17,123 nucleotides of DNA, taken from assembly GCA_027482985.1 (NCBI GenBank), contig JAIXVO010000795.1, forward strand, positions 1 to 17,123, in the 5' to 3' direction. The notes beneath the pieces are model-generated. The model searched no databases and had not been told where the DNA came from. It saw nothing but the letters and a program-made list of their open reading frames with translations. This stretch comes from Cyanobacteriota bacterium. GTDB lineage: Bacteria > Cyanobacteriota > Cyanobacteriia > Leptolyngbyales > Leptolyngbyaceae. Positions 11,360 through 14,257 of the stretch are shown here, piece by piece (position 1 is the stretch's first letter; the number at the start of each line of letters is the position of its first letter). A program made the translations under genes and the position numbers.

Positions 11360-11575
11360 TTAAACCCCAGGATTTTCGGATTCTGGCACTTCGGGCACGA
11401 TATCCGGGCGCGAAGCATCTTCCCAACCCACCGGACGCTTCGAGTTATACCAGGCGATCGAGCCGATCGTCACAGCGGCCACAAATCCGGCAACATAGAC
11501 CGCAGTAAACCAGACAGGGAATTGCCCCCCTTGTTTGGCTGGAACTTCCATTAATAAATTGAATAGGGGATACAT
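11360..11575 (-). CDS. psb35: Probable photosystem II assembly protein Psb35
   Basis: A 71-residue single-helix membrane protein: short N-terminus (MYPLFNLLMEVPAKQGGQFP), one membrane helix (VWFTAVYVAGFVAAVTIG) and the motif SIAWYNSKRPVGWE, then an acidic-proline tail (IVPEVPESE). I recognise this as the Psb35 (Ssl2148) type, which in Synechocystis stabilises the CP47 assembly module together with high-light-inducible proteins. That matches the Hlip gene in the same window, though they are about 8 kb apart. I chose the ATG at 11575 because AAAGGAG lies eight bases upstream; the GTG two codons earlier would leave the RBS too close. Identification is by recall of the motif, not by search. Confidence 0.72.
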   Translation of the reverse strand: MYPLFNLLMEVPAKQGGQFPVWFTAVYVAGFVAAVTIGSIAWYNSKRPVGWEDASRPDIVPEVPESENPGV

Positions 11576-11703: not shown

Positions 11704-11724
11704 GGAGTCAGGAGTCAGGAGTCA
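11704..11724. repeat. Heptamer tandem repeat (GGAGTCA)x3
   Basis: Three exact copies of GGAGTCA run at 11704-11724, followed by the partial GGAGGA. Such short tandemly repeated heptamers (STRR type) are frequent in intergenic DNA of filamentous cyanobacteria. The purine-rich context continues to about 11770. Confidence 0.85.
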
Positions 11725-11779
11725 GGAGGAGAGGAAGCGGCATGAGAGGAAGGGAGAGGAAGGGACGGGAACGGTAGGC

Positions 11780-11868
11780 GCAGGTTTCGCCACAGTCTTA
11801 GGTAAAAATCAATGATGCTGTGCCTAAACCTGCCCTGCCAGAGACTTTCGGTTTCTAAAAATAGTCTC
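11780..11868. other. Foldable block, candidate structured RNA or dispersed repeat
   Basis: GCAGGTTT (11780-11787) pairs with AAACCTGC (11826-11833); three bases further in, CACAG (11791-11795) pairs with CTGTG (11818-11822), leaving a 22-base loop. Eight bases after this comes a second hairpin, GAGACT (11841-11846) with AGTCTC (11863-11868). No coding sequence is supported. It could be a small RNA, a mobile-element remnant or a repeat; the strand is undecided. Confidence 0.4.
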
Positions 11869-11920
11869 AATTGCCTGTGTTATCAATGTCCAACTGACTG
11901 GATCGGTAAAACTGACTTGG

Positions 11921-11949
11921 TTGACGGTTATCCTGGGTATCGCTAAGAT
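11921..11949 (+). promoter_or_regulatory. Strong sigma70-type promoter ahead of the Leu-rich mini-ORF
   Basis: TTGACG (11921-11926) and TAAGAT (11944-11949) are separated by exactly 17 bases, one of the best -35/-10 pairs in the window. The predicted start near 11956 lies about 20 bases before the GTG of the leucine-rich mini-ORF and about 600 before leuA. Confidence 0.65.
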
Positions 11950-11975
11950 AAAACCTAGTCATTCTGTGAGACATT

Positions 11976-12050
11976 GTGAGTCAACAGCTTTCACTTCAAT
12001 TTGTGACTAACTTGCGGCTAGAACTGCTGCTGCGCCTGGGGCGCAAATAA
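11976..12050 (+). CDS. Putative leucine-rich leader peptide (24 codons)
   Basis: GTG at 11976 opens a 24-residue frame ending at TAA (12048-12050). It encodes eight leucines, six of them in residues 13-21 (NLRLELLLRLGRK tail), including three CTG in a row. An in-frame stop at 11967 prevents a longer form. The RBS is weak (GAG about six bases upstream). It follows a good promoter closely and its last codons build a hairpin followed by T residues, the arrangement of amino-acid attenuator leaders such as enterobacterial leuL. The next annotated gene on this strand is leuA, about 500 bases on. Translation and regulation are inferred; no homologue is recognised. Confidence 0.5.
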   Translation: MSQQLSLQFVTNLRLELLLRLGRK

Positions 12051-12056
12051 TTTTTT
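12031..12056 (+). terminator. Attenuator-like hairpin at the end of the leader ORF
   Basis: TGCGCC (12031-12036) pairs with GGCGCA (12040-12045) around TGG; AATAA and six T (12051-12056) follow. The five-base spacer before the T run makes it a weaker terminator than usual. An alternative stem, TTGCG (12012-12016) with CGCAA (12042-12046), would compete with it, so ribosome position over the Leu codons could change the fold. Confidence 0.5.
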
Positions 12057-12090
12057 ATTCACTTTTATTGGGTTTTGGAAGGATGGCAGG

Positions 12091-12119
12091 TTGACGCAAG
12101 CTGTCAATATCATCCTAAT
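12091..12119 (+). promoter_or_regulatory. Second candidate promoter upstream of leuA
   Basis: TTGACG (12091-12096) and CCTAAT (12114-12119) are 17 bases apart. The -10 box matches only four of six consensus bases. If used, transcription would start after the hairpin at 12031-12056 and bypass the first leader. Confidence 0.35.
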
Positions 12120-12223
12120 GATTGCGTTTTGTCAAACACTGATGTTTGCGGATCTACTGCCTGATGGGGGCGATCGCGCAATGCCGTCAGAACCCCCAAT
12201 GACCTAACATCGCTCTACCGTAG

Positions 12224-12250
12224 GTTGGGTTGAACACCGTGAAACCCAAC
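12224..12250. repeat. Palindromic GTTGGGTT...AACCCAAC repeat
   Basis: GTTGGGTT (12224-12231) and AACCCAAC (12243-12250) form an 8-bp stem around an 11-base loop. Sequences of the type TAGGTTGGGTTGAAC...GTGAAACCCAAC are widely dispersed in cyanobacterial intergenic DNA, so this is probably an inserted short repeat. Confidence 0.65.
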
Positions 12251-12293
12251 ACCAATCAAGTTGTGTTGAGGTCGCCGATCGCTTATCCAACCG

Positions 12294-12326
12294 CTGACAG
12301 CATCGGCCTTTCAGCAGTGCTGTCAG
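12294..12326 (+). other. Perfect 9-bp hairpin in the leuA leader
   Basis: CTGACAGCA (12294-12302) pairs perfectly with TGCTGTCAG (12318-12326), leaving a 15-base loop. It lies 85 bases before the second leader ORF. There is no T-tract behind it, so it is a structural or regulatory candidate, not a terminator. Confidence 0.45.
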
Positions 12327-12410
12327 GCAATTAGGGCAACCCCTGGACAACTATCAAACTGATCCAGTTCTGACTGGGCATTCCACTTATTCCAATTCGA
12401 GGAACTTCTC

Positions 12411-12563
12411 ATGCACCTACAACTTCTGCCTGGGTCTGGACTGCGACTGTGGGGGGATTGTCAGGCTTGGTGCGGATGGCACCCTGGCAATCCCGCATCT
12501 GCAAACTGCGCTGCCGTCCCTGCCCACATTCATCGAACTCAAAGGAACTGTCGATCATGTTGA
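12411..12563 (+). CDS. Putative second leader ORF (50 codons) overlapping the leuA start
   Basis: ATG at 12411 has an excellent RBS (GAGGAA, six bases upstream). The frame runs 50 codons to a TGA at 12561-12563, and ATGTTGA shows that the leuA ATG (12557) overlaps the stop, the usual layout of translational coupling. The peptide begins [14 protein letters not shown], with five leucines in 13 residues, then continues with [17 protein letters not shown] and five cysteines in all. The early leucines suit a leucine-sensing leader; the longer Cys/Trp part has no known meaning. I recognise no named family. That it is translated is inferred from the RBS and the overlap. Confidence 0.55.
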
Positions 12564-14257
12564 AATTTCCAGCGACCAAATATCGTCCTGTGGCCCCGGT
12601 AGATTTACCCGATCGCACCTGGGTCAATCGTACCCTCACCCAACCCCCCCTCTGGCTCAGTACCGATTTACGCGATGGCAATCAAGCGCTGATTGAACCG
12701 ATGCGGATGGCCCAGAAGCTCCGCATGTTTCAAATGCTGGTGCAGATTGGGTTTAAAGAAATTGAAGTGGCATTTCCAGCGGCTTCGCAAACTGAATTTG
12801 ACTTTGTGCGCCAGTTGATTGAGCAGGATTTGATTCCGGCGGATGTGACGATCCAAGTCTTAACTCAGGCACGGGCAGATTTAATTCGGCGCACGTTTGA
12901 GTCGTTGCGGGGCGTGAGGCAGGCGATCGTGCATGTCTACAATGCTACGTCGCCCGTGTTTCGACGGGTGGTGTTTGGTCGCGATCGCCTGGGCACTATT
13001 GATCTCGCTGTGCAGGCGGCTACCTTAATGCAAACTCTGGCAGACGAGCAACCGGAAACGCAGTGGCGCTTTCAATACTCACCCGAAACCTTTACTGCCA
13101 CCGAATTAGACTTTGCCAAAGACATTTGTAATGCGGTGTTGGCTGTGTGGCAACCCACTCAAGCCGCGCCTGCAATCATCAATTTGCCCGCGACAGTGGA
13201 AGTCTCGACCCCCAATGTCTATGCTGATCAGGTGGAATGGATGCACCGCCATTTGGCCCAGCGCGATCGCTTGATTTTGAGTGTGCATCCGCATAACGAT
13301 CGCGGGTGTGGGATTGCGGCGGCGGAATTGGCGCAACTGGCAGGAGCCGATCGCGTGGAAGGCTGTTTGTTTGGCAACGGGGAACGGACGGGCAACGTAG
13401 ATTTAGTCACGCTGGCACTCAATTTATATACGCAGGGCATTCATCCGGGACTGGATTTTGCCCAGATCAACGACATTGCCAGAACGGTGGAAGATTGCAC
13501 CCAGTTGCCGATTCACCCGCGTCATCCCTATGTCGGCGATCTCGTCTTCACCGCGTTTTCCGGCTCTCACCAGGATGCGATCAAGAAAGGCTTCGCCGCT
13601 CAAGCTCCGGATGCGTTGTGGGAAGTTCCCTACTTGCCGTTAGATCCGTTGGATGTGGGACGATCCTATGCTTCCGTCGTGCGGGTGAATAGTCAGTCGG
13701 GCAAAGGGGGCATTGCTTTCTTGCTGGAGCAGGAGTGTGGGCTGGTGTTGCCACGTCGCTTACAGATTGAGTTCAGTCAAATTGTTCAGGAAGTGATGGA
13801 TGCGACGGGGGCGGAAATGACTGCGACTGAGTTGTGGCAGTTATTTACCCAAGCTTATTTACAGCCAGCAACGCCCTTGAAGTACGTGTCGCATCACAGT
13901 TCGGAGTTACCAGAGACCCAGGCGATCGCCGTCCAGTTGCAATTGTCCGACCAACTTATCACTTTGACTGGACACGGCAATGGCCCGATTGATGCCTTCA
14001 TCAATGCCTTGAATTGGGACTTGCGGATTCACCACTATGAGGAGCGATCGCTGAGCCAGGGCAGCACTGCGCAAGCCGTCGCCTGTCTGGAAATTGCCGC
14101 CGATTGGATGCCTACTGCCGGATATGGGGTCGGGATTCACACCAACATTGTCACCGCTTCTTTGTTGGCGATCTTGAGTGCCCTCAATCGTCACTGGTCA
14201 CAATTGGATGCAGCCACGGCCACCCGCTTACTGCAACGACTTGCAACAGTTGATTAA
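12557..14257 (+). CDS. leuA: 2-isopropylmalate synthase, long (type 2) form
   Basis: LeuA condenses acetyl-CoA with 2-oxoisovalerate, the first committed step of leucine synthesis. From ATG at 12557 (AAGGA ten bases upstream) it has 566 residues. The TIM-barrel catalytic part shows [11 protein letters not shown] (35-45, metal-binding Asp40), the metal ligands in HPHNDRG (244-250), the [10 protein letters not shown] loop (271-280) and [14 protein letters not shown] (333-346). The C-terminal domain (about 440-566) carries [12 protein letters not shown] (474-485), typical of the leucine-binding regulatory domain. The N-terminus ([19 protein letters not shown]) and the length match the Mycobacterium-like type 2, not the shorter E. 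coli type. Some cyanobacteria also carry a type 1 enzyme; whether this genome does is not visible. Two upstream Leu-rich ORFs suggest leucine-dependent control. Confidence 0.95.

Follow-up and report, generated by a model that had tools for sequence, protein, structure and literature searches.

The leuA2 locus and its leader region

The window, i.e. the whole stretch of 17,123 nucleotides of cyanobacterial DNA analysed in this study, harbors a gene for a "type-2" isopropylmalate synthase (leuA2), which is preceded by two short upstream open reading frames (uORF1 and uORF2), each with an inverted repeat inside it (hairpins 1 and 2). Two more LeuA genes, both of the ordinary bacterial type (TIGR00973 over cut-off), are located on other contigs of the same assembly (G000:C531:5468-6991 and C706:2660-4183), so that leuA2 is an extra copy. 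The features of the locus are as follows.

11921 to 11949, plus strand: sigma-70-type promoter of the leader, TTGACG-N17-TAAGAT, read directly and found in relatives
11976 to 12050, plus strand: uORF1, Leu-rich leader peptide of 24 codons; GTG start at 11976, TAA stop at 12048-12050
12024 to 12032, plus strand: putative control codons CTG-CTG-CTG; Leu in 36, 34 and 33 of 36 dereplicated leaders
12031 to 12045, plus strand: hairpin 1, TGCGCC-TGG-GGCGCA, within uORF1; kept in relatives, synonymous resampling
12051 to 12056, plus strand: T tract of six T after AATAA; T enrichment in relatives
12411 to 12563 (12400 to 12563 with AGGA), plus strand: uORF2 with Leu-rich start; ATG at 12411, TGA at 12561-12563, AGGA at 12400-12403
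12441 to 12449, plus strand: CTG-CGA-CTG, Leu-Arg-Leu of uORF2; CGACT in 27 of 27 hairpin-2 loci
12455 to 12493, plus strand: hairpin 2, GGATTGTCAGG/CCTGGCAATCC, 11 bp, inside uORF2; covariation
12557 to 14257, plus strand: leuA2, 2-isopropylmalate synthase, 566 amino acids; NF002991 (865.9 bits) and TIGR00970 (775.2 bits), both over cut-off

The ATG of leuA2 at 12557 lies 506 nt beyond the stop codon of uORF1, in line with the distance of about 500 bp given in a preliminary description of this DNA. That description read the promoter, the leucine-rich mini-ORF and its hairpin as a classical amino-acid attenuator; the second leader module, directly before leuA2, was missing from it. The divergent neighbour gene encodes the photosystem II assembly protein Psb35 (11360-11575, minus strand; NF047378 over cut-off). 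Short direct repeats (AGGAGTC) are found in the intergenic region at 11704-11728, and contig C520 carries a 77% match to part of 11809-11869. A search with Rfam 15 gave no match in the window; the best score in 11880-12620 was 20.6 bits, for an unrelated family with a gathering score of 45.

Conservation of the first leader module

Between 11300 and 12700, on both strands, four promoters were counted versus 1.4 in shuffled sequence and two terminators versus 1.1, and since these counts are near the shuffled expectation, the single copy proves little. Its layout counts as real because it is conserved among relatives. A protein search identified LeuA2 in 36 of 243 relatives and, within the class, in 61 of 388 genomes, the source genome being counted in both. 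A rule-based scan for ORFs with six or more Leu and an in-frame stop, in which a stem lies at or after the third of three Leu codons, detected module 1 within 600 nt upstream of 27 of the 38 cyanobacterial leuA2 loci, where 0.07 were expected from shuffles. When the upstream regions were read, a Leu-rich mini-ORF arranged as in the window was found at 35 of the 38 loci, often ending in ...LLLGLGLLLRLGRN or ...RK. As for the three remaining loci, L006 duplicates L095, the leader of L113 was found by a covariance model, and L119, whose LeuA2 shows 55% identity, has none. The promoter elements of the window (-35 TTGACG at 11921-11926, a 17-nt spacer, -10 TAAGAT at 11944-11949; 9 of 12 letters) are located where the preliminary description had placed them, and a TTGAC-type -35 together with a -10 element is present 102-191 nt 5' of the leader stop at 32 of 35 leuA2 loci, no such promoter being found at L111, L116 and L120. 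Judged from these comparisons, the Leu-codon leader of leuA2 is real and conserved.

The covariance model (R1), built from 22 leaders and applied at E≤0.01 with rough E-values, matched 74 of the 388 genomes; 56 of these belong to the 61 leuA2 genomes and 18 to the 327 without a listed LeuA2. All matches above 30 bits are found in leuA2 genomes or before a broken leuA2 (G271), and the sole match in the source genome is the leader ahead of leuA2 in the window. In G124 and G294 the 5' part of leuA2 is on the contig of the match; the match on C89 of G274 lies on a small contig which ends before any gene. Five leuA2 genomes gave no R1 match: the leader was found by script in G107 and G227 and by model in G171, G270 has just 310 nt upstream of the gene on its contig, and in G053 no leader was found by R1 or the other scans. 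The same-genus genome G001 lacks both a LeuA2 match and an R1 match. Eight of the 18 other genomes were inspected, at nine places. A leuA2-like frame absent from the protein search results is located downstream of the match in G271 and G105, and no leuA-like frame was seen among the downstream frames inspected at the weak matches in G131, G260 (two places), G280, G117, G055 and one place of G238. The other weak matches are in G034, G060, G125, G143, G157, G208, G246, G251, G319 and G375 (all with E >0.001), at the second place in G238 and at a second place in G274 (C258). At L187 (G271:C11) the leader looks intact and leuA2 is split over several frames, which indicates either a decaying gene or an assembly error.

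From 63 leader rows, two (L139, L113) gave no hairpin by script; the remaining 61 were dereplicated at 85% identity to 42, and after removal of L140, L141, L146, L095 and L182 (wrong stop or other hairpin) and of L089 (stem starting earlier) 36 leaders were retained. Codon resampling was carried out without L147 (35 leaders), and L089 was kept in the tests of competing and downstream stems (37 leaders). The leader stop is shifted downstream in L068, L146 and L113, with Leu triplet and hairpin unchanged. RNAalifold on alignment A1 returned three pairs, none of them with double changes. The GRA-type hairpins had been misplaced by MAFFT, and tables anchored at the stop codon or the stem were used instead.

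By its codon pattern uORF1, the 24-codon frame with eight Leu and CTG-CTG-CTG of the preliminary description, looks translated. The last 17 codons are free of in-frame stops in all 36 dereplicated leaders (the other two frames have stops in 23 and 12), 59 of 76 upstream CAG triplets are in frame, and the closest possible start 12 or more codons upstream is ATG in 22, TTG in 12 and GTG in two of the 36, GTG being the one in this copy. The Leu peak at the triplet, which drops to 11 of 36 one codon earlier, is partly built in, as stem 1 begins with the TG of the last CTG. CTG accounts for 95 of 103 Leu codons in the triplet versus 47 of the 191 at other leader positions (Fisher p 4e-31); the contrast persists when the last triplet codon is excluded (59/67), and in the leuA2 genes themselves 485 of 1864 Leu codons are CTG (38 loci). 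Module 1 thus has a short, conserved ORF in which codons for the product amino acid form a run, as generally looked for in attenuators. The front of a ribosome lies 12 nt past the first letter of its A-site codon, and a stall at the Leu triplet would therefore cover the 5' arm of hairpin 1. Leu codons are also found farther upstream (81% at index -6, 50% at -14), where a stall would leave the hairpin free.

All 35 loci have a stem of at least 4 bp at the place of hairpin 1, located at the Leu triplet or directly after it. The variants TGCCC/GGGCA and TGCGC/GCGCA accompany other peptide ends, one stem position switching from G-C to C-G between these groups, and the hairpin is retained under ends as different as LRLGRN, LRLGRK, LRLARK, LRLAHT, LPVGH, LRGRA and LPSGQK. 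In comparison with synonymous resampling, hairpin 1 is near the best that its codons permit (p<0.05 in 28 of 35 leaders, 0.051-0.075 in the other seven), the 35 tests being interdependent as many leaders share the LRLGR end. Hairpin 1, on the strength of this resampling, is selected as RNA. The comparison with relatives that had been proposed as a check accordingly turned out in favor of the earlier reading: frame, Leu codons and hairpin are all kept as the peptide end changes. It is extremely improbable that the mini-ORFs encode small proteins with functions of their own; both frames are conserved, as this would require, but the end of the uORF1 peptide varies freely while hairpin 1 stays, neither Pfam nor NCBIfam has a family for the three uORF1 peptides tried, and strong model matches are confined to genomes with leuA2, whole or broken.

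The sequence TGCGCC/GGCGCA, AATAA and six T was read in the window as described before, and the terminator-like hairpin is conserved. In the 36 leaders, 126 of 180 letters at +7 to +11 after stem 1 are T versus 291 of 936 at +35 to +60 (p 1e-26 with letters treated as independent). TTTT occurs within +4 to +14 of the stem in 22 of the 36 and is lacking there in 14, and the T tract is set off from the stem by some 5-7 nt, mostly A and T. In the 20 nt behind hairpin 1, G makes up 38 of 720 letters versus 213 of 936 farther downstream. By these measures hairpin 1 is not a textbook terminator and is atypical as a terminator in most copies. No rho was found over cut-off in the source assembly (84% complete), with which factor-independent termination would fit.

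Hairpin-stabilised pauses occur at a distance of about 7-11 nt after the stem, where the T-rich letters are centred here. In the pyrBI attenuator of E. coli the leader ORF runs through the terminator hairpin, as uORF1 does, UTP is sensed, and control codons for one amino acid are not involved. A sensor of this kind, in which hairpin 1 would report the distance between ribosome and RNA polymerase, high translation would lead to read-through and leucine would only slow the ribosomes, is nevertheless improbable for leuA2: leucine shortage would switch the gene off, the opposite of what a biosynthetic gene needs, and the enrichment of Leu codons would be left unexplained.

In the enterobacterial leuL, ilvL and trpL leaders the ORF ends before the alternating segments 2, 3 and 4. 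Module 1 resembles them in the control codons of its leader ORF, its own promoter and its terminator-like hairpin, and to this extent the classical layout proposed earlier holds; it differs in having its hairpin within the ORF, and an alternating antiterminator stem did not pass the controls. The competing stem of the preliminary description has complementary arms (TTGCG at 12012-12016, CGCAA at 12042-12046) but is not predicted to win, the pairing probability of hairpin 1 being at least 0.97 in this copy (L085) at every upstream boundary tried. In many leaders the probability of hairpin 1 drops if the free RNA begins 15-24 nt upstream of the stem; as a sign of an upstream antiterminator this was rejected, since nearly the same was found in synonymous resamples (mean 0.41 in the leaders vs 0.49, lower in 23 of 36). 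A second terminator, formed by the 3' arm of hairpin 1 and followed by a downstream T tract, was likewise rejected (mean z +0.2, 37 leaders). A mutually exclusive antiterminator stem of the leuL/trpL type was thus not found in module 1 beyond the controls.

The second module at the leuA2 start

Module 2 was recognized through inspection of L126. Its ORF starts seven nt behind AGGA, and the stop codon overlaps the leuA2 start (ATGTTGA). The peptide pattern LLRLxxGCQ...[WR]QPDSP was found in 31 of 66 rows, two duplicates among them; 26 were detected by a motif search, which missed the copy of the window, and five more, including this copy, by eye. CGACT is always located 11 nt before hairpin 2 and makes the codon after CGA Leu at all 27 loci; the codon before it is Leu at 24 of the 27. 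In the leuA2 genes, CGA makes up 264 of 1902 Arg codons.

Across loci hairpin 2 is 8-13 bp long with one mismatch allowed. In alignment A3, which comprises 25 of 28 rows (L097, L120 and L124 were left out), 95.3% of the cells are paired and 5 of 11 pairs show double changes, a covariation reached in none of 500 shuffles; slid versions of the pairing are at most 55% paired. An overlapping alternative stem has at least six of seven pairs in 21 of the 25 rows, its covariation not being above shuffles. T makes up 52-59% of the letters at +4 to +7 after hairpin 2 across loci, this copy having no T run, and folding of the 110 nt around hairpin 2 in this copy was no better than in shuffles (z -0.47). 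A terminator scan from the leader to leuA2 with loops of at most 9 nt found few sites and missed hairpin 2 owing to the loop limit. Four loci (L094, L102, L133, L135) carry, 120-150 nt before leuA2, an inverted repeat of 12-14 bp of the GCAGGGTATAGGG type in place of hairpin 2.

A covariance model of module 2 (R2), in which the copy of the window is included, matched the window at 12419-12507 with 64.9 bits. It matched 29 of the 388 genomes at 30 places, all 29 being in the leuA2 list, and gave no match in 32 of the 61 leuA2 genomes, the same-genus G002 among them. G274 has two R2 places on different contigs, L188 (C89) and L124 (C400), one of them behind an R1 match in tandem.

Conserved letters beyond the pairs are present in module 2, CGACT in cyanobacteria and GGTTG and GTGGCA also in betaproteobacteria, in some of which the latter two stand in a different reading frame. 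Such letters would suit hairpins that serve as binding sites of a protein regulator, with the Leu codons secondary, as a passage in Seliverstov et al. (PMC1262725) proposes for the actinobacterial LEU element. This explanation is very improbable here, considering that module 1 keeps frame and Leu positions strictly, which a protein site would not need.

The position of module 2 bears on a post-transcriptional alternative, in which ribosomes stalled on either uORF would alter the decay or processing of leuA2 mRNA, or uORF2 would couple leuA2 translation at ATGTTGA, in both cases without premature termination. The overlap of stop and start codon is found in 25 of the 31 uORF2 rows (two row pairs are from the same genome), the A/U-rich, G-poor stretch after hairpin 1 is probably single-stranded, and the atypical form of hairpin 1 would also be in accordance. 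Against this, the overlap follows partly from the leuA start codons (ATG TTG A), a T tract at fixed distance exceeds the needs of a decay site, and in some betaproteobacteria uORF2 stops in the loop of hairpin 2, so that coupling is not general. Regulation of this kind is rather unlikely.

Among 77 proteobacterial leuA2 loci, R1 matched upstream of leuA2 at 10 and R2 at 13 (E≤0.02). Both occur in tandem at five loci, all of Zoogloeaceae; the others have one or none. Hairpin 1 can enclose the stop codon there (CTG CTG CTG CCC TGA CGGGCA), and the betaproteobacteria with a uORF2 stop inside the hairpin 2 loop belong to the Alcaligenaceae. As LeuA2 of the window is 57-66% identical (best segment) to the proteins of these loci, a transfer of leuA2 together with its leader between the phyla is possible.

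Leucine sensing by ribosomes and relation to known leaders

From the conserved codons and hairpins it is likely that the tandem Leu-codon leader system of leuA2 senses leucine through ribosomes. In the proposed mechanism, hairpin 1 and the T tract would end or hold transcription. With charged leucyl-tRNA scarce, the leading ribosome would dwell on the CTG triplet and cover the 5' arm of hairpin 1, which then could not form, and RNA polymerase would proceed to leuA2. With plentiful leucine there would be no dwelling at the triplet, hairpin 1 would form on more transcripts and fewer of them would reach leuA2. Module 2 would repeat the test at the leuA2 start, via termination or via leuA2 translation. 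We infer both the site of control and its sign, the latter from the role of the gene. For two tandem ribosome-sensed modules with occlusion as described, acting on a terminator in module 1 and as a repeat in module 2, the chances appear evenly balanced. A kinetic objection to the occlusion mechanism remains. Since uORF1 extends across hairpin 1, the hairpin would be masked at any leucine level by a ribosome that closely trails RNA polymerase, and left free by one that lags; the direction of the response to leucine limitation hence hinges on pausing and on the stalling codons. In favor of the mechanism, a passage in a review (PMC7858274) describes collided ribosome-polymerase complexes as incompatible with termination hairpins. 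The most complete reading can be offered tentatively, with somewhat less than an even chance of holding throughout: a tandem leucine sensor of two uORFs, whose Leu codons are set against ORF-embedded hairpins, would travel with leuA2 across Cyanobacteria and Betaproteobacteria, the first module acting by steric occlusion of a terminator without an antiterminator and the second as a bistable RNA at the gene start.

The nearest published description within the open-licence literature is, by the passages concerned, the actinobacterial LEU element, for which a leuA leader peptide, a pseudoknot and pairing of the Leu run with the leuA Shine-Dalgarno sequence are described (PMC1262725). Both systems have a leader peptide with a Leu run before leuA and no typical terminator; here, in contrast, two modules with local hairpins are found. 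The base stem of the LEU element includes the leuA ribosome site (as described in PMC1262725), while the distance between uORF1 and leuA2 varies from 135 to 839 nt, and pairing of the LEU type is therefore unlikely for module 1. The leuL1 peptide of S. lividans as given in PMC8079986 (LLLLSCRG) is close to LLLPIGCR of betaproteobacterial module 2, a mere resemblance. A leucine-rich attenuator peptide of branched-chain amino-acid synthesis in Staphylococcus aureus (PMC5794164) is similar in its Leu-rich leader, which there controls leucine synthesis genes; it belongs to another phylum and is likened here by its description only. No cyanobacterial attenuator for leucine or another amino acid was found in titles and abstracts of the open-licence literature (one topic, best 10 of 709).

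The design, two successive sets of control codons each placed against an ORF-internal hairpin, is simpler than attenuation of the textbook kind, and it may exist elsewhere unnoticed, given that the window has no Rfam match and the uORF1 peptides tried have no family in Pfam or NCBIfam. If the interpretation is true, the leader of leuA2 would be an amino-acid attenuator conserved among cyanobacteria. For such control the ribosome has to follow RNA polymerase closely, and the leader would make cyanobacterial coupling testable; a true tandem sensor would mean that tight transcription-translation coupling and amino-acid attenuation both occur in cyanobacteria.
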